Shown here one piece after another: positions 4,348 to 20,876 of a DNA stretch of 64,000 nucleotides. The stretch lies in contig NZ_BJEN01000002.1 of NCBI RefSeq assembly GCF_008326345.1, positions 186,001 to 250,000 of the forward strand. The letters run 5' to 3'. The DNA comes from Cutibacterium modestum (GTDB taxonomy: Bacteria > Actinomycetota > Actinomycetes > Propionibacteriales > Propionibacteriaceae). The position numbers and the translations under genes are program-made. Every line of letters begins with the position of its first letter. Position 1 is the stretch's first letter. The notes beneath the pieces are model-generated. The model searched no databases. It worked only from the letters and a program-made list of their open reading frames with translations, and was not told the DNA's origin.

Positions 4348-4392
4348 TGTCGACCCGGCGCTGGGCTGCCCCACAGTTCAGTGCTGGGTCGA
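4348..4392. terminator. Bidirectional hairpin between katA and the ABC operon end
   Basis: GTCGACCCGGC (4348-4358) pairs with GCTGGGTCGAC (4382-4392) with one G-T wobble. It lies between the convergent ends of katA and the ABC exporter gene and runs slightly into the latter's last codons. It probably serves both transcripts; no clear T-tract was seen. Confidence 0.45.
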
Positions 4393-6123
4393 CCACACTC
4401 GCCACAGTGTGGCGAACGGGCCGCCGTTGTGACGCAACTGCTTCGGCGGTCCTACCTCGACGATCCGACCGTCGTCCATCACCGCTACCTCGTCGGCCAT
4501 CGCCACCTGGGACAAACGGTGTGCCACCACGAGGGCGGTCCGTCCCCTGACAACCTCGGCCGCGGCACGGTCAAGAGCAGCAGCACCGGAGCTGCCGGCC
4601 TCTGCCGTCGCTTCATCGAGGATGATGACAGGAGGGTCCGCCAACAATGCGCGCGCCAGGGCGACCTGTTGCGCTTGGGCAGGTGAGAGACGGGTTCCCA
4701 ACCGTCCCACCACGGTGTCGACGCCGTGGGGGAGGTGCTCGACCCATTCGGCCCCGACCCGTCTCAGTGCGGCGAGGACGGCGTCGCGGACGCGTTCGTC
4801 GGGCCAGTGCTCAGTGTCAGCGGAGAGGCCGAGTGCGACGTCGTCGAGAAGGGTGCCGGAGAAGGTGTGGATTTCCTGGCTGATGAGCACGGTTCGGGCC
4901 TGGCCCGGTGTGATGGCGATGCTTCCCTGCCGGGGTTCTAGTAACCCCGCTACCAAGGACGCCAAGGTTGACTTGCCCGCTCCAGACTCTCCGACGAGGA
5001 CCATGGTGTGTCCCGATGGAATGTCCAGACTCACCTTGTGCAGCACATCGGGTCCGTTCCGATAGCCGAAACTTACTCGATCCACGTGGATCGCCGCCGG
5101 TCCAGGCAGGCTCCGCTCCGCGATGGTCGGCTCCCCGTGGTGTGCCCGGATGACGCCCACTACCCGCTGTAAACACACCCAAGCTGCCTGCAGGTTATTG
5201 AGGAACATCAATAGGAAGCGGACCGGGGAGAACAGCCTTAACAGCACCAGTACTGCCGACGCGGCCGCGCCGACGCTCAGTCTGTCGGTCGTGACAAGCA
5301 GGTATCCCGTCCAGGCGACGCCGATGGTTGCCATCGCCTCGCCCGCTAGCAGCCGCACAACGAGGGTGTTGCCGAGGAATCGTCCGCGTAGGTTCCACCG
5401 GATTGCCTGCCACGATCCGTTGGCCACCGTTCGGATGCGCAGGTTTTCCAGGCCAAAGGCCCGCACGACGTCCAGCCCGTGAATCGTCGAGAGGATGTGT
5501 TGGGACTGGGTCGTCGAGGCTCTTCTCTCCACCCGGTACACCGGTGGGGCGGTGCGCAAGAATTCTCGGATCGCCAACCCGTAGAGCAGCGCGGCGAGGG
5601 TGACCGGGATGAAGAAGAGCGGGTGCAGGCTGGCCAGCGCCCCGACCGACACAACCACCATGATCATGGTGTTGACAAGGCGCGGGAGGGCGCCGTTGGC
5701 GGCATCGCGGACAGCCGTGACATCGTCGGATGCCCGAGAGACGAGATCTGCGGTACCGGCCCGCTCCACCCGTTGCTGGTCCAGGCCCAACCCGGCTGCG
5801 ATCATTGACTCCCGCAACCGGGTGACGATGGTTGTGAAAAAAGACGGCGTGAGGGATTGTGCGGCACCGTTGCAGATCCCCGACCCGATCACAGCGGTCG
5901 CCATTACTAGCGCAGGGGTGAGCAGGGCCGAGGGCGAGCCATGAGCTCGTGCGGTATCGATGATCCACCCAGTCGCCATTGGGGTCGCCAGATCGAGCAG
6001 GGACGCGGCCGTGATCACCACGATTGCCCCGACGAAGTAACCACGCACTCCGCGCGCTGCCTGATGGACTTCCTGGCGGACTTGGGCAGTAGTGGCGAGT
6101 GGCAACCAACGTGGTGTGCTCAT
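4378..6123 (-). CDS. ABC exporter subunit with consensus ATPase site (TMD-NBD)
   Basis: A 581-residue half-transporter with about six membrane segments in residues 30-320 and an ATPase domain in the rest. Walker A (VGESGAGKST), Walker B with its glutamate (VIILDEAT) and the H-loop (VVAHRLSQ) are intact, but the ABC signature reads LSPAQ instead of LSGGQ. This complements the partner upstream, which has an intact signature but degenerate Walker and H-loop motifs, so the two should form an asymmetric heterodimer. Its ATG overlaps the partner's stop by four bases. It is the last gene of the B12-riboswitch operon. Exporter-fold proteins can also import (mycobacterial IrtAB for siderophores, Rv1819c for cobalamin), so the direction of transport and the substrate are open. 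Confidence 0.85.
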   Translation of the reverse strand: MSTPRWLPLATTAQVRQEVHQAARGVRGYFVGAIVVITAASLLDLATPMATGWIIDTARAHGSPSALLTPALVMATAVIGSGICNGAAQSLTPSFFTTIVTRLRESMIAAGLGLDQQRVERAGTADLVSRASDDVTAVRDAANGALPRLVNTMIMVVVSVGALASLHPLFFIPVTLAALLYGLAIREFLRTAPPVYRVERRASTTQSQHILSTIHGLDVVRAFGLENLRIRTVANGSWQAIRWNLRGRFLGNTLVVRLLAGEAMATIGVAWTGYLLVTTDRLSVGAAASAVLVLLRLFSPVRFLLMFLNNLQAAWVCLQRVVGVIRAHHGEPTIAERSLPGPAAIHVDRVSFGYRNGPDVLHKVSLDIPSGHTMVLVGESGAGKSTLASLVAGLLEPRQGSIAITPGQARTVLISQEIHTFSGTLLDDVALGLSADTEHWPDERVRDAVLAALRRVGAEWVEHLPHGVDTVVGRLGTRLSPAQAQQVALARALLADPPVIILDEATAEAGSSGAAALDRAAAEVVRGRTALVVAHRLSQVAMADEVAVMDDGRIVEVGPPKQLRHNGGPFATLWRVWSTQH

Positions 6124-7886
6124 GACAGCATCCCCCGGTAGTCATCGCGACTCAGCAGGTCGCGGTGTGGTGCGCGGGCGACCTCGCGGCCGTCGACGTC
6201 GAATAGCACCACCTCGTCCATCTGGTCCAGTATGGCCGGGGATGTCGTGGCAATGATGGTGGTGCGTCCCTCCCGCAACTTGTGCAGCCGTTCCGCGATG
6301 GTGGCGATCGTGGCAGCGTCAATGCTTGTCGTGGGGTCGACCAGCATCAGGCCGTCGGGGGAATGCAGCAGGGCACGGGCCAGGGCCAGACGCTGACGTT
6401 GGCCTCCGGACACGTAGCGACCACCTTCTCCGACCTCGGTCTCCAATCCACGCGGCAGTACCGCAGCGACGGTGTCTAGGGCAGCTGCGTCAGTGACGGC
6501 ACTCAGCCTGGCGACAGTCGTTTGGCCGTCGAGCACGATGTTGGCGTGTGCCGTGTCATCGAACAACTCCGGTGAACGGGGCGCCACTAGCACCAGACGA
6601 CGCCGTTGGGCAGGGTTGAGATGACTGGCGGGGACCCCATTCAGGACGGTCTCGGAGCCGTGGTCAATCGCCTCGGCCAGGGCGTCACACACCTTTTGCG
6701 GCGCCACAACCCCCAGATGGCTGCCGCCGGGGACGTCAAGCTGGGAATCCCCGACCGGAACGTGCAATTCCACCGGTCCATCCCCCGGCGTGGTGCGGGC
6801 GCCGTCGTCGGGATGGACTGCCCAGGCCACCGGGCTGTCACGCAGCTCACAGAACCGATCCCCGGAGGCGTGGGCGCTGGCTAGCATCGTCGCAGTGTCA
6901 ACGCCCAGCGCCCGCAGTGGTGGACCCAGGGTCTGTGCCAGGCCGACTACCGTGACGAGCTCACCGGCGCTGATATGCCCGCCCAGGGTGAGCCACCCGG
7001 CCAAGACCGTCAGCACCGTGATAAACACCCCCACCGAGGCATTGATGGTGCCGGTGTAGACCCCCTTGACGCGCCGGGTGCGCAAGGTGGCATTGAGGCC
7101 CTCGCGGCTGGCGACCCGGAACCTTGCGGTGGCTCGACGTTGCGCTGATAACCCCTGGATGACCCGAAGCCCACTGGTGAGGTCGGCGGCCGACCCGGCG
7201 ACCGCGGCCTCGGCACGGCGCTCGCGGTGAGTGCTCCGTTTGACGGGCGCCACTCCTTTCACCGACAGCAGGATGAGCAACGGGACAATGCATGTCGTCG
7301 CGAGTACCAGCCAGCCATTGATGAGAGCCATCGAGATGAGGGCACCGAGCAGGGTGACGATGTTGCCGAGGATAGACGTCAGTGCGATGAAGGCTCGCGA
7401 GACCGCCCGCACGTCGGTGACGAGGACTGCGAGCAGGTCGCCGGGGAGCCGTGAGCGCCCACCGACCCCCTCCGGAGCGGTGATCCAGTCGAGGGCCTGC
7501 ACCCGGAGGTCGTGTTCGGCTAGACCAGCGCCGACATTGGTCTGCATCCGCACCGTTTGGGCTACTGCGCGCACCACGTAGGCCAACGCGACCAAAGCCA
7601 GCCACCCGGTCAGTGCCGCGGCATCGGCGGCCACCACCCCGTCGTCGATAGCGCGTCCTAGGGCCATCGGCACCCCAATGTTCACCAGGCTGACAAAGGC
7701 CGAGGCGATCGACCCGGGCAGTAGCCAACGCCGCCCATCGTGGGTCATCTGGCGCACCACTGCCCGCCCGTCGTGGGCTTGGGTGACGTCGATCAGAGGG
7801 GCGTCAACCGGTGGCGGGGTCTGCCGGGGGATGCGTGGCAGCCAGCCCACTCTCGACTGCCAGTCCCGCCGTGGGGCTCGGATCAC
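6120..7886 (-). CDS. ABC exporter subunit with degenerate ATPase site
   Basis: A 588-residue TMD-NBD half-transporter. The membrane part spans roughly residues 50-320. In the ATPase domain the Walker A region reads GVVAPQKVCD, without the GxxGxGKS loop; Walker B reads LMLVDPTTSID, with proline where the catalytic glutamate should be; and the H-loop position is ATTSP, with threonine for histidine. The signature VSGGQRQRLALARALL is intact. This is the classic pattern of the degenerate half of a heterodimeric exporter. It pairs with the downstream gene (four-base overlap) and its start overlaps the stop of the ChlI-like gene (four bases). The substrate is unknown. Confidence 0.85.
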   Translation of the reverse strand: MIRAPRRDWQSRVGWLPRIPRQTPPPVDAPLIDVTQAHDGRAVVRQMTHDGRRWLLPGSIASAFVSLVNIGVPMALGRAIDDGVVAADAAALTGWLALVALAYVVRAVAQTVRMQTNVGAGLAEHDLRVQALDWITAPEGVGGRSRLPGDLLAVLVTDVRAVSRAFIALTSILGNIVTLLGALISMALINGWLVLATTCIVPLLILLSVKGVAPVKRSTHRERRAEAAVAGSAADLTSGLRVIQGLSAQRRATARFRVASREGLNATLRTRRVKGVYTGTINASVGVFITVLTVLAGWLTLGGHISAGELVTVVGLAQTLGPPLRALGVDTATMLASAHASGDRFCELRDSPVAWAVHPDDGARTTPGDGPVELHVPVGDSQLDVPGGSHLGVVAPQKVCDALAEAIDHGSETVLNGVPASHLNPAQRRRLVLVAPRSPELFDDTAHANIVLDGQTTVARLSAVTDAAALDTVAAVLPRGLETEVGEGGRYVSGGQRQRLALARALLHSPDGLMLVDPTTSIDAATIATIAERLHKLREGRTTIIATTSPAILDQMDEVVLFDVDGREVARAPHRDLLSRDDYRGMLS

Positions 7887-8875
7887 GCTACCTCCGGACC
7901 GCCAACGGACTCGAGCGGGTGTCTCCTCATTCGGTGGGGCAGGACGAGTCGGGCGGCTTGGGTGAGATCGTCCGCGGTGATCTCGATGCGACCATCCCAG
8001 GCTGCCAGGGTGCGTGCCGCTCGAACCATCATGATGTCGGCGCGGTGGCCGTCGACGTGGGCGTTAATGCATACGTGAGCCACTCTCGTGAGGGTCTCGT
8101 CGGCAATGGTGACTTGTTTGACGAGCTCGGTGGCACGTTTGATCTTCTCACTGATCTCGTGGCCATTCTGTTCCCATCTCCGCGAGAAGCCAACGGGGTC
8201 GTCTTCAAAGGCTAGCCGACGTCGGATTACCTCGACGCGTCTGTCGGGGCTATCCTCCCCACCGACGGTCACGCACAGCCCGAACCGATCGAGCAGCTGG
8301 GGGCGCAACTCTCCCTCCTCGGGATTCATGGTGCCAACCAGGGTGAATCGGGCCGGATGGGAGACGCTGACTCCTTCCCGCTCGACTGTGTTGACGCCCA
8401 TGGCGGCCGAGTCCAGCAGCAGGTCGACGACGTGATCGTCGAGCAGGTTGACCTCGTCAACGTAGAGGATCGCGCGGTGGGCGGCCGCCAGTAGACCCGG
8501 CTCGAAGCGGCGGCGTCCCTCACGAAGGGCAGTCTCCATGTCGAGGGTGCCGGTAACCCGATCCTCGGTGGCCCCCACCGGCAGCTCGACCACCGGCACC
8601 CGAACGGTATGTGGCTCAGGCATGGTCTCGGGCAGGCCCAGCTGCCCGGAATACTCCGAGTATTCCTTGGGGGAGAGATGATAGGTCCCCGGAACCTCCC
8701 AGTGCTTGGGCAGCAGGGCGGCGAGTCCGCGCACCGCAGTAGACTTGGCAGTGCCCTTTTCGCCGCGGATGAGTACCCCAGACAGGTCGGGGCTGATGGT
8801 GGCGAGGATGAGGGCCAGCTTCATCTCCTCTTGCCCGACGATGGCGCAGAAGGGGTAGACGGGGCGTTGTGCCAT
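7883..8875 (-). CDS. ChlI/BchI-like AAA+ ATPase (chelatase subunit)
   Basis: A 330-residue AAA+ protein of the magnesium-chelatase subunit I family. It shows Walker A GEKGTAKST near residue 37, Walker B ILYVDEVNLLDDH and the conserved TMNPEEGELRPQLLDRFGL. In the family this subunit forms an ATP-driven ring with the ChlD-type VWA protein and powers metal insertion by ChlH/CobN. Here the VWA protein and a CobN-like protein are encoded directly upstream, so the three plausibly form one metallochelatase. The ATG at 8875 lies inside the end of the VWA gene (55-base overlap), and the stop overlaps the next ABC gene. The metal and the tetrapyrrole substrate are not known. Confidence 0.88.
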   Translation of the reverse strand: MAQRPVYPFCAIVGQEEMKLALILATISPDLSGVLIRGEKGTAKSTAVRGLAALLPKHWEVPGTYHLSPKEYSEYSGQLGLPETMPEPHTVRVPVVELPVGATEDRVTGTLDMETALREGRRRFEPGLLAAAHRAILYVDEVNLLDDHVVDLLLDSAAMGVNTVEREGVSVSHPARFTLVGTMNPEEGELRPQLLDRFGLCVTVGGEDSPDRRVEVIRRRLAFEDDPVGFSRRWEQNGHEISEKIKRATELVKQVTIADETLTRVAHVCINAHVDGHRADIMMVRAARTLAAWDGRIEITADDLTQAARLVLPHRMRRHPLESVGGPEVA

Positions 8876-10848
8876 GTCAGCGGTCCTTTCGAGGTGATTG
8901 CTGAGGGATCAAGGTGAGACACGACGTTGACGAGATCGTCGGTCCGCAGGTCGTCGATGCGCAGACAGGGGCCGCCGAGGGCCGTCGCGATGTTGCGGGC
9001 CCGAGATAGTCGGATGCCGCGAGGATCCTCGGTGTCGATGACGACCCAACTGAGACGTGTGTCAGAGCCGATCTCGGTGGCCACTCGGATCGCCTCATCA
9101 GTGGCCCGGGAGTTGGGATGGCCGTTCAGGTCAACGTTGCCGCGTCCGTCGGTGACGAGCACCAATAGGGGTCGCAGACCGGGGTCTTTAAGCAACAAGG
9201 GTCGTACGACCTCGCAGGCCTTGACCAGCCCCGCCGATAGTGGGGTACGTCCGCCGGTGGGCAGTTCTGCCAAACCTCGCTGTGCCACCTCCACCGAGGA
9301 GGTCACCGGCACGAGCACCTCCGCCCGGTCTCGGCGGAAACCGATGAGGCAGACCCGGTCGCGCTTGACGTAGGCGTCAAGTAGGAGGCTGAGGACAGCG
9401 CCCTTTGATGCGGTCATCCGGCCCCGTGACCCCATCGACCCCGAGGCGTCGACGACGAAGATCACGCAAGAAGGCGATCGCCTGGTTCTCACCTTGGCAT
9501 GCCAGTCGCTCGGCTCGATATGAACCACCATCGGGGGACGATTCGGATCGGCCCGGCGTGACTTCTGATGCACCGCGGCGGCACGGAGGGTGACATCGAG
9601 GGCAAGATCGTCGGGGACGGTGGTGGGGCGTGCAGATATGTAACGGCCTCGTCGGTCGCTGCTGCGGGTGCGAAGACGTCTTCCGGTGCTATGACGGGCC
9701 AGATGATCCTGATTGGGTTCTAGGAGGCGGACGGCGAAGGGCTCACCGATGGTGGCTGTTTGTTCTGCGGAATGGGTATCGGACTGGTTGTCGGGATCGC
9801 TGTGGTGATCATGCTTGCTGTGGCCGTCGGTGCCATATGGGGTGGCACGATCTTCGCTCCCCGACCGATTTTCCACAGCTCCGTTGGGGCCTTGGTCGGT
9901 CCGCTGGGGTGGAGCGGGTAGGTCTGGTGGATCCGATTGCTGGGAAGGTTCCTTGAGCTGGTTGTGCTGATCAAGCTGTTGCCTGGGCGACGGGGGAGGG
10001 CCGGAAGGGGTCTCGTCGCGCCGACGATGCCGCAGCGCCATCTCGCTGACCGCCAGCACATCATCCTCGGTGGCGATGCCTCGGCCAGCCAGGGCAGCGT
10101 GAGCTCGGGTGGTCTCGGCCAAGACGATATCGGCACGATGCCCGGCGACATGGTTGTGACGACACAGCGACGATATGAGTTCGGTGGTGACCTCGTCGAG
10201 GCGCACCCCGTCGACCATCCTTTGAGCTCGCGCGATTACTGCCGCCTGGTGGTCCTGGTCCTGTTGCCAATGCTGAAGGAACCGAGTTGGATCTGCGTCG
10301 TGGTCGAGACGACGACGAATGATTTCAGCTCGGACGCTCGGGTCAGTCTCACCATGCACTTCGACGCACAGCCCGAATCGGTCGAGCAGTTGGGGCCGGA
10401 GCGCCCCTTCCTCGGGGTTCATGGTTCCCACCAGCACGAAACGGCTGGCCAGCGAGACTGTCAACCCCTCTCGCTCGACTCGCACCATTCCAGTACAGGC
10501 GTCGATAACGAGATCGACGAGATGGTCGTCGAGGAGGTTGACTTCGTCGACGTAGAGCACGCCGCCGTCGACCTCGCTTAGGAGACCTGGCTGGAGTGCT
10601 GGCCGTCCGGACGCCAACGTAGTCTCAAGATCCAACCCGCCGACGAGACGATCCTCGGTGGTTCCCAGAGCCAGGGTGCGCATCACCTGGTCCGGTAAGA
10701 GTTCGGCCAAGCCACGGACCACCGTCGACTTGGCGGTCCCCTTCTCCCCGCTGAGCAGAACCCCGCTGATGCGCGGGTTGATTGCGCACATTAACAGGGC
10801 GAGTTTTGTCTCTTCCTGGCCGACGATGGCGGCGAAGGGGTAGGTCAT
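8821..10848 (-). CDS. ChlD-like AAA+/VWA protein (chelatase subunit)
   Basis: A 675-residue protein with an N-terminal AAA+ domain (Walker A GEKGTAKST near residue 37; VLYVDEVNLLDDH), a proline/glutamine/aspartate-rich linker at roughly residues 285-400, and a C-terminal von Willebrand A domain. The MIDAS motif DASGSMGS is near residue 468, with TDGRGNVDLNG further on. This is the architecture of the ChlD/BchD subunit that couples the ATPase ring to ChlH/CobN. The start ATG shares one base with the cobN stop (TGATG), which indicates translational coupling. The long overlap with the next gene is unusual but both frames look real. Confidence 0.87.
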   Translation of the reverse strand: MTYPFAAIVGQEETKLALLMCAINPRISGVLLSGEKGTAKSTVVRGLAELLPDQVMRTLALGTTEDRLVGGLDLETTLASGRPALQPGLLSEVDGGVLYVDEVNLLDDHLVDLVIDACTGMVRVEREGLTVSLASRFVLVGTMNPEEGALRPQLLDRFGLCVEVHGETDPSVRAEIIRRRLDHDADPTRFLQHWQQDQDHQAAVIARAQRMVDGVRLDEVTTELISSLCRHNHVAGHRADIVLAETTRAHAALAGRGIATEDDVLAVSEMALRHRRRDETPSGPPPSPRQQLDQHNQLKEPSQQSDPPDLPAPPQRTDQGPNGAVENRSGSEDRATPYGTDGHSKHDHHSDPDNQSDTHSAEQTATIGEPFAVRLLEPNQDHLARHSTGRRLRTRSSDRRGRYISARPTTVPDDLALDVTLRAAAVHQKSRRADPNRPPMVVHIEPSDWHAKVRTRRSPSCVIFVVDASGSMGSRGRMTASKGAVLSLLLDAYVKRDRVCLIGFRRDRAEVLVPVTSSVEVAQRGLAELPTGGRTPLSAGLVKACEVVRPLLLKDPGLRPLLVLVTDGRGNVDLNGHPNSRATDEAIRVATEIGSDTRLSWVVIDTEDPRGIRLSRARNIATALGGPCLRIDDLRTDDLVNVVSHLDPSAITSKGPLTWHNAPSTPSAPSSGKRR

Positions 10849-13800
10849 CAGGTCAACCCCAGCGAGCTAAGATCGAGTCCACCATCAGCGGTGGAGGTAG
10901 GGGTATCCGGCTGCGGGTTGTCGGAGACTTCCTCAATGGTTCCCTCGATGTCGGTGTAGGTGTCCTCCAACTCCTCGACGGTGCCTGGATCAGCATTCCA
11001 CACCTTGCGCTGGGCGGCGTCGAGCAGCTTGTCCACGATATTGTGCGGGTTGACCTCACGGAACCATTCCTGCACGGTGGGATCGAGGGCATAACGGCGC
11101 GCAACACTCTCCCACAGACCGTCATCGACGACGTCCGCGGTGGCGTCCCAGCCAATGAGGATGTCGAGCACCGCGGACAGGTCTCCGGCTCCTTTGTAGC
11201 CGTGACGTTGCAGACCCTCGATCCACGATGGGTTGAGTATCCGGGACCGCAGGATGAGTCGGGCCTCCTCAGTAGTGGTGCGTGTGGCGATCCGGGACGG
11301 ATCCGAGGAGTCACCTACGAACGATTCCGGTGCCTCGCCTCGCACCGTGGTCGCAGCGGCAATGAGACCGCCGTAATAGTTGTAGAAGTCGGTGCAGCTG
11401 AGCATGTCGTACTCGCGGGTGTCCTCGTTTTTGACGGTAACGTCCATTCGCGACAAGGCTGCGGTAAATCGCTCGGGCTCCACGTCTCCGAAAATCCCCT
11501 CGCCGTAGGCGTGGGATGAGGCGGCGATGTAGGCCCGTCCCAGATCGGCCTTGTCCTGCCACGCCTTGGTCTCGATGAGCTCTTCCACCCCGGCGCCGTA
11601 TCCGCCGGGCGGGCAACCGAAGACCCGTAGTGTGGCCTTCCTGCGGGCCTGCTCGATGTCGACCCCGCGGGCGACGAGGTCTGCGGCATCGGCCTCGACG
11701 TGAGTGCGCAGCACGTTGTCGGGCTCGGGTAGGGCGGCGACCATCCGTACCGCACGATCGACCATCTCGACGAGGTTGGGGAAGGCGTCGCGGAACAGGC
11801 CTGAAATGCGCGGGGAGACATCAATGCGGGGGCGTCCCAACTCGACGGGGTCAATGATCTGGAGCCCGCTGATGAGCCCCGATGTCTCCCACAGTGGTCG
11901 CACCCCCATCAGGTACAGGATTTCGGCGATATCGGCTCCGCCGCTGCGCATGTTTGGGGTGCCCCACACCACGACTCCGACAGTGCGTGGGTACGGTTGG
12001 CCGGGGTGTGCCTCGGCATAGCAGGACAGCAGCTGTTCGGCAAGCTGGACACCTTCACGCCAACCTGTCGGGGTGGGCATCGTCTGAGGGTCCAGGGAGA
12101 AGAAGTTCCGGCCGGAGGGCAGGATGTGAGCGTTGCCGCGGCTGGGCGCCCCCGACGGCCCGGGCGGGATGAATCCGCCGTCAAGGGCCCTCAGGATGGC
12201 CTCGATCTCGTCGCTGGTGGAGTCAAGACGCGGCATCAGATCAGTGAGGACCCAGGTGAGGGTTTCAATGACGTCCCCGCGTTCGGCGCCGAGTTGTTCC
12301 TGGCACAGCTGGGTGGCCAGGGCATGAGCTTTTCCGGCGTCTAAACCTCCGCTGCGGTGGCAGGCAACGACCGGGGTCAGTAACTCTAGACAGCGGCGAT
12401 CGGCCTTTTCCATGATCTCACGTCCGGTCAGTCCTTCGGACAGGTCGGTGGTGATAGTCACCGGCTCCCCGGCCTTGGCGCCGACCTCGTCAAGGCTGGT
12501 GCCCCAGGAATTCAGCACGGCCTCACGTAGGGAAGGTATCGACCCGTTGGGTTGACGGGTGAGCTGCGCGACGTACTCGACCTCCGCCGTGTCAGGATCG
12601 TCCTGACCGGCGATGAGCTGCCCAAGCACGTGCAGACCATCCGAGATTTCGCGGTCTTGCAGATCGAGGAGATGGTGGTGGACTTTGTTGAGTATCTCGA
12701 CAGGATCAGTGTTGACGTCATCGACCGTCAGTCCCAGATCGGTGTCCAGGCCGGCCTTGACGACGGTATCCCATACTTTTTCGGCAACGAGTGTGGCACG
12801 TTGGGGGCTCTGCGACGCCGCGCCGGCGTGTTCGCGCAGGATCCGGTCGAGTTCGGCGGTGGAATCGTACAACCCGGCCTGCCGCATCGGCGGGGTGAGG
12901 TGGTCGACGAGGACCGCAGCGCTGCGTCGCTTCGCCTGGGTGCCCTCACCAGGATTGTTGATGATATACGGGTAGATGTTGACCATCCGGTCCAGGGCAA
13001 GTTCCGGGTAGCACTCCTCGGACAGGCCTAATCCCTTGCCCGGAAGCCATTCCAGACTGCCATGGGTGCCGACGTGGATGACGGCGTCCGCTTTGAAGAT
13101 GTCGCGGATCCAACGGTACTGGGCAAGGTAGTGGTGGGGAGGCGGCAGCACTGGATCGTGGATGACGGCGTCCGCTTTGAAGATGTCGCGGATCCAACGG
13201 TACTGGGCAAGGTAGTGGTGGGGAGGCGGCAGCACTGGATCGTGGATGACGGAATCCGTAGTGGCCTCGAAGTTTCCGCGTGGGGGTTGAATCGTCAGCA
13301 GAATATTGCCGTCGATGTGGCCGGCGAAGGAGAACTCGTCGTCGTGGACGAAGAACGTGCCTGGGTGCGGTCCCCAGTTGCGGTCCATGGACTCGCGGAC
13401 CGATTTGGGAAATGCCCAGTACCAAGGTCGTGAGGTTGGCAAGTCGGCGTGGGCCTCAGCGCGGTCGTGCATTTGCTCGGGGGTGAGCCAGCGCTGATCG
13501 CAAGTGAGCATCGACAGCAACAGCTGAGCGCTGTCGTCGCCGGTTTCGAACTGCTCGGGGACGTCGTAGCCCTCTTCAGCCATCCGGATGAGCAGTTGGC
13601 GCACCGACTCAAAGGTGTCAAGCCCCGTGGCGCAGCCGATGCGGTCATTGCGCGGTGGGTGGTGGTGAAAGACGATAGCCACCTTGCGTTGGCCTGCTGG
13701 GGTACGGGACAAGCGGGCCCACGACAGCGCCAGCTCTGCCATGGCCTCGGGCCGTCCTGGAACCGGCACCATCCGCGGCACGATGGCCCCGGTAAGGTTG

Positions 13801-14810
13801 TCGATGGTATCGGCTTCTCGAGTGGCGAGGAGCTTCGTGATGAGGGCGCCGTCGAACTCCGGTTGGGCCGCCTGGGTGGCGATGTCCATCGACCCCATCC
13901 CTTGGGCGGTGGATTTCCAGGCCGCATGTGGTCCGTACGAGGTGAGCGCGTGTAGAACGCTCACCCCCAACTTCGGGTAGGCCTGCTCGTTTTGCGGCAT
14001 ACCGGCGGTCATGGGCATCCCGTGTACGTCGATGAGCGTGTCGATGACGCAGCGGCCATTCTCGTTATGGAGCAGGGTGTCCAGTATCTGGGCCATTCCA
14101 GGGTTGCCCCGCCGGGAGTCTGGGAGCCGCAGGCAGAAGAACGGCAAGGTGTTGGCGTCCAGCGCCTCGATGGCCTTGACGAGGGCCTCGATGTGGGCCG
14201 TGTTGTGCTCCAACCAGTAGCTGCGCGGGAAGGTGATCCCGATGGTGGGGCGGTCCGGATCGAGGTGGTGCCGGTACTCGGCGAGGCTGGTGAACAGGCC
14301 GTGACGTGGGTGCCAGATCCCTTCGGTGGGGGCGGGGACGACGTCGGGGATGGGCGCCGATCCTCCCGCCACTCGGTCGATGAGGATTCGCAGTGCCGCT
14401 TCGACGTTGTCCAGGCCGCCCATCTCCAGCAGCTCGATGAGACCCTTCCAGGTGCCGTCGTCGAGTCCGCTGGCCCAATCCTGGGCGGCGAGCATGCCGT
14501 CGCTGTCGCCGGAGGTGGGTTGGATGTGGATCCAGGGCAGCGGTAGACCGGATTCGCGACGGTCCTTCCACGCCTCGACCAGTGCAGGCCATGCCGGGCA
14601 GGATGTGGTGCCGCCGTGGAAGCTGAGCACGACGGCATCACTTCGGGCGGCAGCCTGGGCGAAAGCGCGGGCCATGTCCGGGTCGGCGACCTGCTCCTTG
14701 GTGCGCCCGGAGAGGGTGACGTCGAGACCGTCGGCGCACAGCCGTGGCAGGGCTTGGCTGACGAGGGTGAGTTCGCCGCCGGTGGATGAGAAGAAGCACA
14801 GGGTGGTCAT
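10848..14810 (-). CDS. cobN: CobN-like metallochelatase large subunit with an internal tandem duplication
   Basis: A 1320-residue protein of the CobN/ChlH family, the large subunit that binds the tetrapyrrole and metal. Conserved CobN segments include VGTHGSLEWLPGKGLGLSEE, GVVVWGTPNMRSGGADIAEIL and CPPGGYGAG. Together with the VWA and ChlI-like genes directly downstream it forms a candidate three-subunit chelatase. Around residues 520-577 a 28-residue block (key motif DPVLPPPHHYLAQYRWIRDIF) occurs twice in tandem, encoded by an exact 84-bp repeat. Family members that I know have it once, just before the VGTHG motif. The frame is kept, but the insertion sits in a conserved region and may impair activity. 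The start overlaps the radical SAM stop by four bases. Confidence 0.88.
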   Translation of the reverse strand: MTTLCFFSSTGGELTLVSQALPRLCADGLDVTLSGRTKEQVADPDMARAFAQAAARSDAVVLSFHGGTTSCPAWPALVEAWKDRRESGLPLPWIHIQPTSGDSDGMLAAQDWASGLDDGTWKGLIELLEMGGLDNVEAALRILIDRVAGGSAPIPDVVPAPTEGIWHPRHGLFTSLAEYRHHLDPDRPTIGITFPRSYWLEHNTAHIEALVKAIEALDANTLPFFCLRLPDSRRGNPGMAQILDTLLHNENGRCVIDTLIDVHGMPMTAGMPQNEQAYPKLGVSVLHALTSYGPHAAWKSTAQGMGSMDIATQAAQPEFDGALITKLLATREADTIDNLTGAIVPRMVPVPGRPEAMAELALSWARLSRTPAGQRKVAIVFHHHPPRNDRIGCATGLDTFESVRQLLIRMAEEGYDVPEQFETGDDSAQLLLSMLTCDQRWLTPEQMHDRAEAHADLPTSRPWYWAFPKSVRESMDRNWGPHPGTFFVHDDEFSFAGHIDGNILLTIQPPRGNFEATTDSVIHDPVLPPPHHYLAQYRWIRDIFKADAVIHDPVLPPPHHYLAQYRWIRDIFKADAVIHVGTHGSLEWLPGKGLGLSEECYPELALDRMVNIYPYIINNPGEGTQAKRRSAAVLVDHLTPPMRQAGLYDSTAELDRILREHAGAASQSPQRATLVAEKVWDTVVKAGLDTDLGLTVDDVNTDPVEILNKVHHHLLDLQDREISDGLHVLGQLIAGQDDPDTAEVEYVAQLTRQPNGSIPSLREAVLNSWGTSLDEVGAKAGEPVTITTDLSEGLTGREIMEKADRRCLELLTPVVACHRSGGLDAGKAHALATQLCQEQLGAERGDVIETLTWVLTDLMPRLDSTSDEIEAILRALDGGFIPPGPSGAPSRGNAHILPSGRNFFSLDPQTMPTPTGWREGVQLAEQLLSCYAEAHPGQPYPRTVGVVVWGTPNMRSGGADIAEILYLMGVRPLWETSGLISGLQIIDPVELGRPRIDVSPRISGLFRDAFPNLVEMVDRAVRMVAALPEPDNVLRTHVEADAADLVARGVDIEQARRKATLRVFGCPPGGYGAGVEELIETKAWQDKADLGRAYIAASSHAYGEGIFGDVEPERFTAALSRMDVTVKNEDTREYDMLSCTDFYNYYGGLIAAATTVRGEAPESFVGDSSDPSRIATRTTTEEARLILRSRILNPSWIEGLQRHGYKGAGDLSAVLDILIGWDATADVVDDGLWESVARRYALDPTVQEWFREVNPHNIVDKLLDAAQRKVWNADPGTVEELEDTYTDIEGTIEEVSDNPQPDTPTSTADGGLDLSSLGLT
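13073..13252 (-). repeat. Exact 84-bp tandem duplication inside cobN
   Basis: Bases 13081-13164 and 13165-13248 are identical. The identity continues at period 84 for eight bases before (CGTGGATG) and four bases after (ACGG), which leaves a 12-bp sequence (CGTGGATGACGG) at each unit boundary. The unit is 28 codons, so the reading frame is preserved. The short boundary repeat suggests slippage or unequal recombination. Confidence 0.97.
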
Positions 14811-15907
14811 GGTGCAGTCTCCAGACGGGCGAGGGTGTCGTCAATGAGGCAGGTGAGTGGAGTCCGGCGTTGTTCTGGGTCGGCAAGGGCGTTGGCTTCT
14901 ACCCGGGATGGGCAGTCGCCGGGGCAGCGTCCGGCCAGGGCACAGCGGTGACAAGGCCCGCGCAGGGTGTGGGCATCCTGTGAGAAACGCCGCCGCAAGG
15001 CCTCCCAGTCGACGTTATGGATGTTTCCGGCCCGAGATGTCGGGTCCCCGACGGCTTGGGAACAGGGGTAGACGCCGCCGTCCGGTGCTACCGCCATCGA
15101 CTCTTCGACCGCCGCATGGCAGTAGGGCCGGTTCGACACTGAGAGTGGCAGGAGGGTGCGATCCGAGGAGTCAACGGCCGGCGCGGCGGGTACGGGGGCC
15201 CGCCGCAGGGCAGCGCGGACGGTCTCTAATTCCCGCCAGCGCAGGGGTGTGGCGCGCAGCGCGTTGATCTGTGGTAGCCGCCGATGGAGTGTGGTGATCC
15301 CGTCGACTACGGCATCCTCGGAGGGCATCAGATCTTTCTGACCTGCTGCGCTCCCAATCGGCACCAAAGGGTCGAGCCCGAATCCGGTGACGTTAGGTAG
15401 CCCAGCTAGGGTGACCGCCAGCTCGTCGAGGTGGTCGACATTACGGGCCGAGAGCACCGTCGTCACCCGCACTGGCACGTCGGCTCGAGCCAGAGCCAGC
15501 AGTCCCCGAAAGGTCTGCGCAGCTGATCCGCGTGATCTCTCCTGCACCTGCGGCGGCCCGTCAACGCTAACTCCGACCTGCACTTGGTGGCGTGCCAGCA
15601 TGGCGATCATGTCCTCGTCGAGGTGCGTCGCATTGGTCTGGATGCCGCAGGTGATCCTTCCACACCGGATTGCCACAACACGTTCGGCGACGTGCTCGAT
15701 GAGGGAAGGCACCAAGGTCGGCTCGCCGCCGGCTAGTTGAACGTGTGCGGGCCGATTTGTGGCATACACGCCCTCAGCAACAAGGTCGACCGCGGCGTCG
15801 GCCACCTTGGTAGGCATCCGGCCGCCTCGGCGGTTGCGGCGGTAGCAGTAGGGGCAGGCGAGATCGCAGGCGGCAGTAGGCCATAACACGAGGTAACGGA
15901 CGCTCAT
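14807..15907 (-). CDS. Radical SAM/SPASM-domain protein
   Basis: A 366-residue protein. The N-terminal CDLACPYCYR gives the CxxxCxxC cluster that binds the SAM-cleaving 4Fe-4S centre. The segment QLAGGEPTLVPS is the GGEP motif that contacts SAM. The C-terminal part holds cysteines in VYPCSQAVGD, GPCHRCALAGRCPGDCPSR, typical of a SPASM domain with auxiliary clusters. SPASM enzymes often modify peptides or mature enzymes, but no precursor-like small gene is evident next to it. Four-base overlaps on both sides (ABC ATPase upstream, cobN downstream) place it firmly in the B12-riboswitch operon. Its substrate is unknown; tetrapyrrole or peptide modification are both possible. Confidence 0.85.
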   Translation of the reverse strand: MSVRYLVLWPTAACDLACPYCYRRNRRGGRMPTKVADAAVDLVAEGVYATNRPAHVQLAGGEPTLVPSLIEHVAERVVAIRCGRITCGIQTNATHLDEDMIAMLARHQVQVGVSVDGPPQVQERSRGSAAQTFRGLLALARADVPVRVTTVLSARNVDHLDELAVTLAGLPNVTGFGLDPLVPIGSAAGQKDLMPSEDAVVDGITTLHRRLPQINALRATPLRWRELETVRAALRRAPVPAAPAVDSSDRTLLPLSVSNRPYCHAAVEESMAVAPDGGVYPCSQAVGDPTSRAGNIHNVDWEALRRRFSQDAHTLRGPCHRCALAGRCPGDCPSRVEANALADPEQRRTPLTCLIDDTLARLETAP

Positions 15908-16884
15908 GCTCGGTGTCCGTCCTGCCCATGGCGGGCAACGAGGTGATCGTGTAACTGGGACAGGGTGGGCAGTACTCGGTCATCGACCGTCCAGCCCCCA
16001 TCAGTGACGCCGATCGACAACACGGCGTCGCCTGGCTCGTCCACTGCCCGGTATCCAGACCGGGTCAAGGTGTGGCGGGCGAGGTCGGCGTCCACTCCTG
16101 CCCCGATGACCGTCGCCGCCGGACGCCCTTCGCCGGACTCCCAAAAGGTGAGGGTGTGCAGGTCGAAGTTGATTCCCTCGGTGAGGAAAGCCTCCTCGAG
16201 GCAACCGTTGCGAGCCAAGTCCTCCGGCGCCCCGATCGTCACGTCAGTGCCACGCCCGGCTACCCACAGGATGTCGGTGTAGCGCATCACTGCCTCGATA
16301 TCGTGGCTGCACACCACCACCGCGATGTCACGTGCCATGCACACCTCGCGCAGCATGCCGAGCAGGGCGATCCGGCCCGGTGGGTCGAGAAAGGACGTCG
16401 GCTCGTCGAGCAGCAGGATGGACGGTTCCTGGGCCAGAGCGCGGGCTACCATGACAGTTCACCGATGAAGGCTTCGGCGAGGCTACCAGCCCCCACCGCG
16501 GCCAGGGACTCGTCGATGACGGCATAGTCGCGGGGCCGCAGCCGCCCGACAATGCCCGAATATGGATGGCGTCCCAGCGAAACGACGTCGCGGCAGGTAA
16601 GACGGGCCACCGCCACCCGGTCGGTGAGGACGGTCGAAAGGATCCGGGCGATTTGGCGACGTGACATCCGCGACGTCGGAGTGCCATGAAGTTCCACCTC
16701 GCCGCCGAGGCTTGGCTGCAGACCAGCGACCGAGCGCAGCAGGGTCGACTTGCCGGCACCATTGGGGCCGACCAGCCCAACTGTGACCGGAGTCCACCGA
16801 TGCCGTCACCCCTGACAGCACGGTGGTGACGTGGCGGCCAAATCGGTACCCGACCGCCAGATTCGACAACGCAAGGCTCGTCAC
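15904..16884 (-). pseudogene. ABC importer ATPase (FecE/BtuD type), disrupted by two frame breaks
   Basis: The start at 16884 opens MTSLALSNLAVGYRFGRHVTT and overlaps the permease stop. Near 16785 the frame slips: the following frame reads VGLVGPNGAGKST (Walker A) and continues to FIGELSW, where it meets a TAG near 16450. The rest (MVARALAQEPSILLLDEPTSFLD, Walker B and H-loop) lies in another frame down to 15904. The whole LSGGQ signature is missing at the second break. The spacing fits loss of 22 bases between GTC repeats. Without Walker A in frame and without the signature the protein cannot be functional. It would have energised the FecCD-type permease encoded upstream. Confidence 0.88.
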
Positions 16885-18026
16885 GTCGCCTCCGCTTCTC
16901 GGTACCAGCGGATCAGGATGGCCATGACGACCGGCGCACCGAACACTGCATTGACGGCGTTGACGGGCAGGACGTCGTCACCGGGTAGCTGTGCCAGGAT
17001 GTCGGCCAGCAAAGCGAGCGAACCGCCCATGAGGATGCATCCGGTCAGCAGGTGACGGTGATCGGTCGTCCCCAGTACGCCACGTGTCAGGTGGGGGATC
17101 GCGATGCCCAGAAAGCTGATCGGTCCGCAGAACGCGGTCGCAGTACCGGCGAGAATAGCGGTGCTCGCCACCAGCAGGGTGCGTACCACTTTGAGGTTCG
17201 TCCCCATCGTCTGGGCGTAGCGCTCCCCCAACAGCAGGGCGTTGAGCGGTTTGGCGAGCAGCAGGCTGGCTAGGATCATGACGACCATGACAGGCACTAT
17301 GACCCGCAAGTTCTCCCATGTCACCCCGTGGTAGCTGCCGAACTGCCAGCGGGTGTACTGGGTGATGAGCTCCGGGCTGGCCCGCGACAGCAGCACGGTG
17401 GCCCCCGACGACACAAAGTACCCGATCATGACGCCGAGCAGCAGCAGGATCGTCGAGGAGTGGATGAACCGTCCGGCCAGCATGACGATGAGCAGTACGA
17501 CGGCCGCTCCCAGCGCCGCAGCGACCATGACCAGCAGATCTGGCCCGAGTCCCAGCCCGGAAGCGAAACTCGCTGCCCCAGCCGATGCCGAGGTCGAAAG
17601 GACCACCAAGGCGACGCCGAGACTGGCACCCGACGAGATGCCTAGCACGTAGGGGTCGGCCAGCGGGTTGCGAAACAGGGTCTGCATCTCCAGCCCGGAC
17701 ATTCCCAGCGCCGCTCCGACGAGTAGGGCGGTAATGGTGCGGGGCTCGCGGACGTCATGGATGATCGTCAAGGACACCGGATCGATGTTGGTGCCCCCGG
17801 TGATGACGGTCATGACGTCACCCAGCGGGACGTTCACCGAGCCTAGTGCTAGGCCCGCCAGGGCGATGGTGACGAAGATCACCCCGAGGATCGTGAAACG
17901 GATCGGCAACGGCATTCTGCGTCGCCTCAGTGTTTCCCGAGATTCTTGCGTCTCCTGTGGGGTTTGATCCGTCGGTTGTCCCTGTTGCGTCCTCTGGGTC
18001 TGCGTGGTGCGCCGGGTTGCGGTCAC
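16881..18026 (-). CDS. FecCD/BtuC-family ABC permease
   Basis: A 381-residue permease of the iron-siderophore/cobalamin uptake class with about nine to ten membrane segments. An unusually long Gln/Thr/Arg-rich cytoplasmic N-terminus of about 40 residues precedes the first segment. Family motifs include RTITALLVGAALGMSGLEMQ, NPLADPYVLGISSGASLG and FLGIAIPHLTR. It is intact, unlike the ATPase downstream and the binding proteins upstream. Its start overlaps the stop of the adjacent binding-protein pseudogene by four bases. Control by a cobalamin riboswitch makes a corrinoid, cobalt-chelate or related tetrapyrrole the best guess for substrate. Confidence 0.88.
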   Translation of the reverse strand: MTATRRTTQTQRTQQGQPTDQTPQETQESRETLRRRRMPLPIRFTILGVIFVTIALAGLALGSVNVPLGDVMTVITGGTNIDPVSLTIIHDVREPRTITALLVGAALGMSGLEMQTLFRNPLADPYVLGISSGASLGVALVVLSTSASAGAASFASGLGLGPDLLVMVAAALGAAVVLLIVMLAGRFIHSSTILLLLGVMIGYFVSSGATVLLSRASPELITQYTRWQFGSYHGVTWENLRVIVPVMVVMILASLLLAKPLNALLLGERYAQTMGTNLKVVRTLLVASTAILAGTATAFCGPISFLGIAIPHLTRGVLGTTDHRHLLTGCILMGGSLALLADILAQLPGDDVLPVNAVNAVFGAPVVMAILIRWYREAEAT

Positions 18027-19267
18027 TGCGCGGCGGCTTTCCGGTAGAAGTAGAACTGGTGGTCAGCGTTGAGCTCAGGGTGCAGGATCGTGGCCAAGTC
18101 CGCCAGTACGAGGTCAGGACGCACGACGCCAGTCTGCCAGTAGTCATTGCCGTGCTTTGGATCGGCGCGCAGGGTGGAGTCCCACACATTGCCATTGTTC
18201 ATGGCCTTAAGTGATTTCAGGCGTGGGTCGGATTTGAGGATTTCCGGGACGGACGATTTCTCCGGCCCATCGATCCAGAACTCGGCGTCATGGCCCTGCT
18301 TGAGAACGGCCTCGGTGTCTAGTTTCTTCGAGGCTACCCCGTGGATGTCCTTGAACACATATTCGCCGCCGGCGTCACGCAGGAACTGGATGGAGTAGTT
18401 CTCGTTAGGTTTGATGTACCAAATGCCCTTGTACTCGGAACCGTAGAGGACGCTCGGCCGCGCCCTCACCTTCGCGGTGCGTTTGGCAGTCATGTGGTGC
18501 TTCTTGGCGATCTCGTCGTACTTCTGGTTCGCGGTCCTCTCAGCGTTGACAAATAGGGAGTCGTACTTGATTCATTCGGCACGCCCTAGTGGGGTACTTT
18601 CGAGGAAGTTGGGTTCGGCGACGATCGGGATGCCCATCTCCTTGATTTTGTCCACCTTGCTGGTGTTGTCGCTACCGCTGACGAGGTTGAAGATGAACAG
18701 GTCCGGATGCAAGGCCGCCAGTTTCTCGGTGTTGATTTCGGTGGTGTTGTCCCCTGCTGCGAAACTGGCGACCTTGTGGTCCGTGAGAGCCCGGCGGATG
18801 TTCGGGTTCCCGACTCTATCTATGTTGACGATGCCAGCCACCGCGTCCAACTTTCCCAGCATCTGGAACTGCATGGGCAGGGTAGATGACCCCAGCGCCA
18901 CCCTGGTAGTGGGAATGGTGATGTGCTGTGCCCTGGCGAGGTCCCCGTCCAGGTGCGGGTCGGGGGCGCCGCACTGCACCAGAACGTACTGGACCGGTTC
19001 CGTGGCGGCGTTCGACGGATGTTTGAGCGTCACCACCTTGTAAGACCTGTGGTACGACACGGTGATGTCGCGGGCGTCACTGAAGGTAGTCTTGTCGGGG
19101 AAGTAATCCTTCGAAGAATCGAAGTTTTTAATGCAGCCCTGTCGGAAGGGCGGGCTGGACGACTTGTCGGTCGAGAAATCGGAGTGCTCGGAGTGTGAGC
19201 ATCCGGTAAGGGTAGCGACGGTCAGGGTGGTGGCGGCCAGACCCGCGATCAGACGAGTGATGGGCAT
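18023..19267 (-). pseudogene. Lipoprotein solute-binding protein, interrupted by an in-frame TGA
   Basis: One continuous 414-codon frame runs from the ATG at 19267 to the stop at 18023 and is interrupted only by TGA at 18572-18574. Next to the stop the sequence reads LGRAE-stop-IKYDSLF; the adjacent paralogue has LARAEWMKTYGVL, so the codon was very likely TGG (Trp). The N-terminus is a lipoprotein signal with lipobox LTGC. The protein resembles class III (BtuF/FecB-type) binding proteins and shares YHRSYKVVTL and VLVQCGAP with its neighbour. GGAG lies nine bases before the ATG. It would deliver ligand to the FecCD permease that overlaps its end. Confidence 0.88.
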
Positions 19268-19318: not shown

Positions 19319-20588
19319 TTAGCCGAGCTTCTTGTAGTAGTTACGGGGTGTATCCGGGCATGAGGTTTGGGTGGAAGATGTATGTGAGGTCCGCCAGGAC
19401 GACGTCGGGTTGGACGGCACCGGACTGCCAGAAGTCATTTCCGGTGTCGGGGGCGGTGCGTTTGGTGGGGTTCCAGACCTTGCCGTTCTGGAAGGCTGAT
19501 AGGTTGGCGTATCGCGGATTTTGTTTGAGAGCGTCATTTTTGTTGTGCTACGTCGTCATAGACATATAGTTGCCGTTGAGCCAGAAGTCGGCCTTGGACC
19601 CGTACTTGAAGATCACCTCGGAGTCGGTCGGGGCGGATCCCATGCCCTTGACGGCCTGGTCCATGACATTGGAGGCTCCGGCGTCGGTCATGAACTTGGT
19701 CATATAGGAGTCGGCACCCGGTACGTACCACTGCCCCTTGGTCTCCTGGCCAACGAGAACGCTGGGTTTGTTGATGACGTGCCTAGCCTTCTTCGTAACC
19801 TCGTCGTAGCGCTTGACGATCCTGTTGAAATCCTTCCTGGTGGCGCCCTCCATATTGAGGAGGACCCCATAGGTCTTCATCCACTCTGCTCGGGCGAGCG
19901 GGGTGGGCTCGAGGTAGTCAAGGTCCTTCAGCACAGGGATGCCGGAGGACTGCACCTGCTCGAACTCGCCCACCTCTGAGCTGGCTGCCAGCACGACGTC
20001 GGGCTTGAGAGCGATGATTCTTTCCGGGTCGATTTGCATCCGGCCCGGCCCGTAGCTAGGGACGTGCCGGGCCTCGAGGGCGTCACGAGCAGGGCCGCGG
20101 TAAATTTGATCGAGCTGGTTGACACCGACGATCGTGTTTAAGGACCCCAAGGCGTGAAAGACCGGGATCTGGGTCGTTGATGAGGCGGCGACACGTTTAA
20201 CTGGCACGTTAATGACCTGGGCCTTGGCAAGGTCACCGGTCAGTGTGGGTTTGGGGGCTCCGCACTGCAGCAGCACCAGGGTCTGCGCCGGCTTTCCCTG
20301 CCTGCCGAGGGTCATGATCTTGTAGGACTTGTGGTAGCTGATGTGGACGTTCTTGGCCATGGCGAAGATGGCCTTGTCTGGGAGGTAATCCCTGTGTTTG
20401 TTGAAGGATTCCGAAGGAATGCACCCGGACATGTTGCCGCCGGCTCCTGTTGACACCGTGATGGCCGGCGTGCTCCCGGAGGCGGACGTGTCATTCGAAT
20501 TCGAGCAGCCCGCCAAGGCGATGCTGGGGGTGACGATAAGGGTGATGAGGGCCGAGATCCTCCTCGGCAGCGTCTTCGGAATGCTCAC
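19319..20588 (-). pseudogene. Second lipoprotein solute-binding protein, nonsense codon plus late frameshift
   Basis: First gene after the cobalamin riboswitch. The probable start is GTG at 20588 with AGGGGA upstream; the lipobox is LAGC. The frame is open to TAG at 19548-19550 (NYMSMTT-stop), then continues in the same frame as HNKNDALKQNPRYANLSAF through WQSGAVQPDVVLADLTY to TAA at 19341-19343. The expected end (PRNYYKKLG) follows in another frame to 19319, which suggests loss of one base. It is a paralogue of the next gene (shared YHKSYKIMTL, VLLQCGAP, LARAEWM region). The truncated product would lose about 70 C-terminal residues, one side of the ligand cleft. Confidence 0.87.
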
Positions 20589-20635
20589 GCGGTTTCCCCT
20601 ATCGTCATGTCGCAGGGCTTGCGGGGGCACGCATG

Positions 20636-20815
20636 ATGCGTCCGGCAGACTCCTACGGCGAGAGTCGACAACTGTCACTCCTCAGAGAGTCGACCGGACT
20701 GAGCCTCAAAGGCATCACCGTTGCGCGACAGTGTCGGATTTACACCGACTTCGCTCACTGTGGAGGGCCCCGGATCGAGTCCGATTCGAGGCAATCGCAC
20801 ACTAACACCATGCAC
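20636..20815 (-). promoter_or_regulatory. Cobalamin (B12) riboswitch
   Basis: Read on the minus strand, 20717-20751 gives AAGTCGGTGTAAATCCGACA followed by CTGTCGCGCAACGGT, a close match to the highly conserved core of cobalamin riboswitches. A B12-box-like element (GCCGTAGGAGTCTGCCGG) follows at 20641-20659. The element lies about 50 bases upstream of the GTG start of the first binding-protein gene and downstream of the cblS remnant. It should repress the whole minus-strand operon when adenosylcobalamin is abundant. The outer boundaries are approximate. Confidence 0.87.
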
Positions 20816-20876
20816 ATGGGACTCGTCGCGGGGGTTGGGATGTGGATGTCGCTAAAAAGTGCAAGTGTCCTGTTTC

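Follow-up and report, generated by a model that had tools for sequence, protein, structure and literature searches.

Organization of the operon

The window analysed here is a stretch of 64,000 nucleotides from Cutibacterium modestum (NZ_BJEN01000002.1, contig C2 of the genome labelled G000), and the subject of this work is a minus-strand operon within it, in which a cobalamin riboswitch is followed by ten genes in a nearly gapless run. In order, these encode two binding lipoproteins (substrate-binding proteins, SBP1 and SBP2), a FecCD permease, an ATPase, a radical SAM/SPASM protein (rSAM), the chelatase-type subunits CobN (here CobN-A), ChlD and ChlI, and a pair of exporter-fold proteins, ABC1 and ABC2 (Table 1). 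The original prediction, made from the sequence of the window, had described this run; every member has now been identified by family matches, and the gene content, the order and the one- or four-base overlaps at most junctions are confirmed. Four bases are shared by SBP2 and FecCD, ATPase and rSAM, rSAM and CobN, ChlI and ABC1, and ABC1 and ABC2, and a single base by CobN and ChlD, while ChlD and ChlI overlap by up to 55 bases, with an uncertain start codon, and SBP1 and SBP2 are spaced by about 70 bases.

Table 1. The riboswitch and the ten genes of the operon, with positions in the window
Feature	Position	Strand	Evidence and remarks
AdoCbl (cobalamin) riboswitch aptamer, RF01482	20642..20780	-	covariance model match
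SBP1, Peripla_BP_2-family lipoprotein	19341..20588	-	ORF stops early at 19548 (in-frame stop); homology continues to ~19341
SBP2, second binding lipoprotein	18023..19267	-	in-frame stop at 18572
FecCD/BtuC-type permease	16881..18026	-	PF01032, 240 bits; top NCBIfam match BtuC, below cut-off
FecE/BtuD-type ATPase	15904..16880	-	broken over several frames in the source strain
rSAM, radical SAM/SPASM protein, 366 aa	14807..15907	-	CX3CX2C plus SPASM-type cysteines
CobN-A, large chelatase subunit	10848..14810	-	PF02514, 1193 bits; TIGR02257, 902.0 bits against a cut-off of 822.05
Exact 84-bp tandem duplication within CobN (28 aa)	13073..13252	-	sequence repeat
ChlD-type AAA+/VWA chelatase subunit	8821..10848	-	Pfam and NCBIfam matches
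ChlI-type AAA+ chelatase subunit	7883..8875	-	Pfam and NCBIfam matches
ABC1, exporter-fold half	6120..7886	-	no Walker A; VSGGQ signature intact
ABC2, exporter-fold half	4378..6123	-	Walker A (GESGAGKS) and LDEAT; LSPAQ replaces the signature

The comparison of operons covered eight other Cutibacterium genomes (G001–G008), a distant actinobacterium (G171) and four metagenome-assembled genomes of a third class (G136, G363, G555 and G556, referred to as the third lineage). The rSAM gene was found together with a CobN gene in all 12 genomes that carry it, in three actinobacterial lineages: seven Cutibacterium genomes, G171 and the four metagenome-assembled genomes. This bore out the expectation that the two would co-occur across genomes.

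The riboswitch

The RF01482 covariance model matched upstream of SBP1 with 46.6 bits (E 1.6e-6), which is near the family's gathering score of 50 and under it, and for this reason the element is missing from a scan at the default threshold. The related model RF00174 matched at the same site and at the corresponding sites of G001–G006, above its cut-off in G002 only. In 10 of the 12 genomes the module lies behind a riboswitch match, which exceeds the family cut-off in four of them (G002, G136, G555 and G556); in the remaining two, the C. namnetense match was marginal (19.1 bits, E 0.018) and the contig of G363 begins at that place, leaving the site out of view. In the predicted fold of the leader, a run of C pairs with a run of G ahead of the first start codon; the stability of the leader did not exceed that of shuffled sequence (z -0.28), and folding energy alone gives no support. 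Judging from the covariance-model match and its conservation in relatives, an adenosylcobalamin riboswitch probably heads the operon. Riboswitches of this class usually allow expression when adenosylcobalamin is low.

A second riboswitch in the window, for thiamine pyrophosphate (TPP), lies at 23140-23234 on the plus strand (74.8 bits) and overlaps the start of the ORF at 23118-24794.

State of the genes across Cutibacterium

The source strain carries a damaged version of the operon, with an in-frame stop in each binding-protein gene and an ATPase gene split over frames; the rSAM, ChlD, ChlI, FecCD and both ABC genes are open. The 84-bp duplication in CobN was missing from the seven other CobN-A proteins aligned. 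In relatives with intact genes, SBP1 has 432-452 aa, SBP2 407-414 aa and the ATPase, for example in G003, 333 aa. Both rSAM and CobN were present in six of the eight other Cutibacterium genomes (G002–G007), at 76-87% identity over the matched pieces, and the rSAM protein of the window is 81% identical to that of C. avidum and 76% to that of C. namnetense. All ten genes stand in the same order in G002, G003, G005 and G007, and in G004 and G006 the order is the same with a single binding protein instead of two. Pairwise dN/dS, computed for rSAM, CobN, ChlD, ABC1 and ABC2, was 0.085-0.202 throughout. In G001, a deletion derivative (L053, G001:C1, 6359-10430) retains a weakly matching riboswitch, part of SBP1, about 95 CobN residues and both ABC genes, which are open; G008 gave no match to rSAM or CobN.

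Two local expansions were seen in G002, where the rSAM protein (L025 11164-12432) has some 55 extra in-frame residues between the core and the SPASM region, and ABC2 (L025 239-2200) an extra stretch of about 60 residues.

The module in other actinobacteria

An rSAM profile, applied to 396 genomes of the phylum with E values up to 1e-15, matched three (the source genome, G171 and G136); it also matched 2 of 394 genomes of the class at 1e-25 (both Cutibacterium), 1 of 66 genomes of the class of G171 and 4 of 40 genomes of the class of G136 at 1e-20. This apparent rarity may be overstated, because the genome samples were partial and the phylum and class scans scored at most five candidates per genome among the matches listed. 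Outside the Actinomycetota, a limited search by one contig scan gave four loci, of which only those of C. avidum and C. namnetense were close, and plasmids gave no rSAM match at 1e-15.

In G171, a cobalamin riboswitch (30.5 bits, under the 31.5 cut-off) is followed by SBP, FecCD, ATPase, rSAM, CobN, ChlD and ChlI, and then by a convergent CbiZ gene; identity to the proteins of the window is 52% for rSAM, 52% for CobN, 44% for ChlD and 63% for ChlI. In the third lineage, the genes are spread over two contigs in three of the genomes. G136 has the riboswitch, CobN, an ABC ATPase and an ABC-2 permease on one contig, and ChlD, rSAM, a NifH-NifD fusion and a second nitrogenase-component-1 protein on the other; G363 has CobO, CobN, the ABC ATPase and a cut ORF on one, and ChlD, rSAM, the NifH-NifD fusion and the second component on the other; G555 has the riboswitch, CobO and CobN on one, and the ABC-2 permease, rSAM and the NifH-NifD fusion on the other. 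G556 presents a single piece, with the riboswitch, CobN, a ferredoxin, the ABC ATPase, the ABC-2 permease, ChlD and rSAM, and we infer that the separate pieces within each third-lineage genome likewise form one operon. A FecCD/ATPase/SBP set with a riboswitch of its own adjoins the rSAM end in G136 and G556.

The link between exporter and chelatase was thus conserved in part: the exporter-fold pair belongs to the Cutibacterium operons, but the G171 operon has no exporter and the third lineage has an unrelated one of the ABC-2 type. Within the operon, the exporter-fold pair turned up in no lineage other than Cutibacterium, and no separate search for it was made in other genomes.

The nitrogenase-like genes beside rSAM in G136, G363 and G555 (L070 4290-8046, L076 2120-3743 and L078 2417-6179) would, in the case of the NifH-NifD fusion, encode a putative reductase next to the chelatase. 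These genes, and the presence of exporters of two unrelated families in two lineages, are what one would expect if the module made a secreted, modified metallotetrapyrrole such as a cobalt scavenger, whose ring would be tailored by the rSAM protein and the nitrogenase-like reductase, whose metal would be loaded or unloaded by the chelatase, and which would be secreted by the exporter and retrieved by the importer. We regard this as rather improbable, given that the G171 operon has no exporter, that no nitrogenase-like gene was found in the Cutibacterium or G171 operons, and that the binding proteins of these two group with those of B12-riboswitch uptake operons (see below).

The importer and its ligand

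A clade (100/100) unites the binding proteins of Cutibacterium and G171 with plasmid proteins of Bacteroidota, Cyanobacteria and Rhodococcus. Seventeen plasmid records matched the binding protein and 84 matched CobN; six of each were read in context, a Spirosoma plasmid being in both sets. A cobalamin riboswitch was present in all six of the binding-protein stretches; in four it immediately precedes the binding-protein gene, and in the other two it leads the run of genes to which that gene belongs. In Spirosoma and Hymenobacter this run extends into CobO and CobU, with CbiB nearby. The binding protein of a second Cutibacterium chelatase operon (operon B, below), four other Cutibacterium binding proteins and those of the third lineage fell outside the clade. 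Because the binding proteins of the module group with proteins of B12-riboswitch uptake operons and apart from the heme-side protein of operon B, a corrinoid can be predicted fairly firmly as the likeliest ligand of the Cutibacterium and G171 importers. The original prediction had left the imported substrate as a tetrapyrrole or a cobalt chelate. That step is now narrowed to a corrinoid, while metal handling, modification by the SPASM enzyme and export of a product keep their conditional form, which leaves the interpretation as a whole partly supported.

The module importer resembles the BtuFCD-type corrinoid importers found behind cobalamin riboswitches in its riboswitch-SBP-FecCD-ATPase order and in the clade of its binding protein; unlike them, it is joined by gene order to a chelatase, an rSAM protein and an exporter.

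Some of the plasmid contexts merit mention in their own right. On the Rhodococcus plasmid NZ_CP142144.1 (L101 4883-12998), an SBP-FecCD-ATPase operon with a cobalamin riboswitch adjoins a Tn7-like set (TnsA-like, TniQ). On the Spirosoma (L100) and Deinococcus (L110) plasmids, a binding protein and late cob genes accompany CobN and a further chelatase subunit (VWA-type or putative cobaltochelatase), and no ring-building genes were found in the stretches read; such sets might serve the salvage of metal-free corrins.

The chelatase clade and its active-site loops

A tree was computed from 24 CobN sequences, which covered neither the two-piece CobN of G555 nor those of haloarchaea, Spirosoma and Deinococcus. 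The Cutibacterium CobN-A proteins and the module copy of G171 formed one group (100/100), and a second CobN of G171, encoded in a cob operon, joined the CobNs of the family's other genera in another (100/100). The ten CobNs of other genera were assumed to be biosynthetic from their sequences, the gene context having been scanned for that of G171 only. Three third-lineage CobNs joined the module side with moderate support (85/70), flagged for long branches, and the same was seen for the third lineage in the rSAM tree (89/85, likewise moderate and flagged), which used all but one of 14 SPASM paralogs (L018, where no ORF met the filter). By the CobN tree, the CobN-A of the module is a clade apart from the sampled biosynthetic CobNs, and it nevertheless scores above the cut-off of the CobN equivalog TIGR02257.

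Two loops that face each other in the structure of the heme dechelatase HmuS (PMC12583661) were compared across 23 CobNs. The motifs HxGKHG and DSDD were found in 11 of 11 biosynthetic-type CobNs, as against HVGTHG and SCTD in 8 of 8 module CobN-A proteins of Cutibacterium and G171. The variable position of the first motif is K in solved CobNs and T in ChlH; haloarchaeal CobNs of corrin clusters have T together with DSSD, and those of Spirosoma, Deinococcus and Tsukamurella have K and DSDD. Reading HVGTHG as a sign of dechelation was considered and dropped, the same letters being present in haloarchaeal CobN and in ChlH. Among the CobNs compared, the SCTD loop and its conserved cysteine were peculiar to the module; this loop may mark a reworked active site.

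The chelatase shares with the CobN-ChlI/ChlD (CobNST) cobaltochelatase of the late-cobalt pathway its three subunit types, a CobN identity of about 35-47% and the TIGR02257 score; it differs from that enzyme in its distinct clade, its altered loop, the lack of corrin-ring genes in its operon and the presence of other chelatases in the host. HmuS (hmu operon of Bacteroidota; PDB 9D26), as described in passages of PMC12583661, also couples a large subunit of the CobN/ChlH superfamily to the import of an external tetrapyrrole and recovers the metal, and the module chelatase adjoins a tetrapyrrole-type SBP-FecCD-ATPase importer in the same operon. CobN-A is nonetheless nearer to CobN (707 bits) than to HmuS (339 bits), has LSCTDFYN and no LSLDHxxEFMGG-type (DHxxE) loop, and is accompanied, unlike HmuS, by AAA+ partners, a SPASM enzyme, an exporter and a B12 riboswitch.

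A closer parallel to HmuS is offered by operon B, an SBP-FecCD-ATPase-CobN-(190 aa)-ChlD-ChlI run near a gene with a heme-binding HtaA domain, which is present in G000 (L052, G000:C1:639501-659500, 4915-14965) and G003 (L054 5560-15607); neither an rSAM gene nor an exporter pair lies in this gene run. Both its CobN-B and its ChlD-B are split in G000, while the G003 copies are open. The operon-B CobNs of G003 and of G090, from another genus, have HVGTHG and a DHYFE loop (TDLDHYFE) that fits the HmuS pattern. Because of this HmuS-like loop in the G003 copy, operon B looks like a candidate heme dechelation system, and it suggests that the combination of an importer with a class I chelatase has been used twice in these bacteria.

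The radical SAM protein and the exporter pair

The cysteine motifs CX3CX2C and CX2CX5CX3C are present in all 12 rSAM sequences; the Pfam SPASM model scored just below its cut-off (21.1 against 21.5). Comparison with tetrapyrrole enzymes of the AhbD/NirJ type gave weak matches, TIGR04053 with 53 bits for the protein of the window, and AhbD with 58 and NirJ2 with 55 bits for that of G171.

All eight ABC1 sequences have the VSGGQ signature and lack Walker A, and all six ABC2 sequences have Walker A and B without a canonical signature, so that a single composite ATP site is expected. The solved structures nearest in sequence to the two halves were exporters and their relatives (among the best 60 of 245 and of 194, respectively). 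A few proteins with the exporter fold act as importers (IrtAB, YbtPQ, Rv1819c); none of them was among these best 60 of 245 and 194, and an importer reading of the pair is not supported. From its fold and composite ATP site, ABC1/ABC2 looks like a heterodimeric ABC exporter, which would transport outward. It has the exporter fold and the one degenerate ATP site of TmrAB, BmrCD and TM287/288, from which it differs in the complete lack of Walker A in ABC1.

Peptide export is a common role of ABC pairs. Together with the best partial NCBIfam matches of the rSAM protein, which are peptide maturases such as PapB, this would fit a system for a ribosomally synthesized and post-translationally modified peptide, matured by the SPASM enzyme and exported by the ABC pair, with the chelatase as a mere neighbour. 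This reading was set aside as very improbable: a precursor gene would hardly fit between genes that overlap, no PqqD-like recognition domain matched in a Pfam scan, the maturase matches lie far under their cut-offs, and the rSAM protein accompanies chelatase genes in three lineages.

Relation to B12 synthesis

The observation that the operon contains no corrin-ring genes held for the Cutibacterium operon itself, but the genome carries an early-cobalt corrin cluster elsewhere, with CbiX, CbiG and tetrapyrrole methylases. CbiX was found in all seven Cutibacterium genomes searched for it and CbiC in all nine, and the second CobN of G171 is encoded behind a riboswitch in a cob operon that also contains CbiA/CobQ-type, methylase, CbiG, CbiC and CbiX genes. 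The view of CobN-A as the ordinary chelatase of B12 synthesis was therefore rejected, since its hosts own CbiX and G171 owns a biosynthetic CobN besides. In the third lineage, CbiC was unmatched in G136 (98% complete) and G555 (73%) and matched in G363 and G556, so the presence of the module is not strictly tied to ring synthesis. CbiD, with matches in G363 and G556 alone, was dropped as a marker because no Cutibacterium genome matched it, and as G171 showed none either, its absence from G136 says little.

The chelatase might still work in the forward direction, if external corrins that are cobalt-free or wrongly metallated were salvaged, trimmed or activated by the rSAM protein, supplied with cobalt and finished by the late B12 pathway. 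Passages of PMC6771967 report that some purple sulfur bacteria produce corrinoids without cobalt; CobO stands ahead of CobN in G363 and G555, CobN-A passes the NCBIfam cut-off for CobN, and on the Deinococcus and Spirosoma plasmids CobN occurs alongside a binding protein and late cob genes, with no genes for building the ring in the stretches read. Such salvage would also suit G136, where CbiC was unmatched. It leaves the exporter without a role, however, and the active-site loop of CobN-A departs from that of biosynthetic CobN, an enzyme that G171 already has; on balance we consider forward chelation unlikely, if less so than the secreted metallotetrapyrrole. The lack of a CobW-like gene was dropped as an argument against cobalt insertion, none having been found among the genes scanned in the biosynthetic cob operon of G171 either.

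A possible function in cobalt recovery

Our leading interpretation, which we hold tentatively, is that of a B12-repressed module for the processing of corrinoids, most likely for the recovery of their cobalt. Low adenosylcobalamin would let the riboswitch permit expression, and the lipoprotein or lipoproteins, with FecCD and the ATPase, would import a corrinoid, as the clade of the binding proteins suggests. The SPASM radical enzyme would then attack the corrin ring, and the ATP-driven CobN-A/ChlD/ChlI complex, with its reworked active site, would remove cobalt from the opened or altered ring. The released cobalt could supply the cell's own CbiX-dependent B12 synthesis, and the spent ring would, from the gene context, be expelled by the heterodimeric ABC pair or, in the third lineage, by the ABC-2-type exporter.

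Several points favour removal of cobalt: the hosts own chelatases for synthesis already, exporters from unrelated families recur in two lineages, and operon B offers a parallel. According to passages of PMC6771967, cobalt leaves a corrin only when the ring is destroyed; this reported resistance would be overcome by a ring-attacking enzyme, and the presence of one in the module would thereby be explained. More doubtful is the specific proposal that this is the first biological removal of cobalt from a corrin, with the ring opened by the SPASM protein, the cobalt stripped by a CobN-family dechelatase, the ring exported and the whole switched on by B12 shortage.

Several observations weigh against cobalt recovery. 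The literature searched yielded no enzyme that extracts cobalt from a corrin, and the direction of metal transfer by the chelatase is one that we infer; HxGTHG does not fix it, because the motif is present in the haloarchaeal corrin-cluster CobN and in ChlH. The third-lineage CobN (two sequences, plus that of G556) keeps the lysine, with HxGKHG and an acidic DGDD loop, and the binding proteins of this lineage lie outside the corrinoid clade. The G171 operon does without an exporter, and in G001 the exporter pair alone remains whole behind the leader. G136 has the module with no CbiC match and may not need cobalt for ring synthesis. Lastly, the product of the CobO gene that precedes CobN in G363 and G555, a corrinoid adenosyltransferase, would equally suit cobalt insertion or plain salvage.

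Implications

No system of this composition was described in the literature searched, which consisted of titles and the openings of abstracts, with subscription papers mostly outside. Cobalamin riboswitches of C. acnes precede ABC transport and other genes, and the passages of PMC9600381 that treat them do not contain the word chelatase; those of PMC3848588 make no mention of one either. In the literature found, B12 is treated as a compound that is made, imported or remodelled, and recovery of its metal is not described. A conserved, B12-controlled chelatase that, in skin-type bacteria, has a radical enzyme and an exporter of its own makes the breakdown of corrinoids, or the salvage of cobalt-free corrins, directly testable. 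The module also separates from B12 synthesis a CobN clade that NCBIfam scores simply as cobaltochelatase, and it suggests a function that could be sought among those members of the chelatase superfamily that, in passages of PMC12583661, the authors of the HmuS study point to as unassigned.

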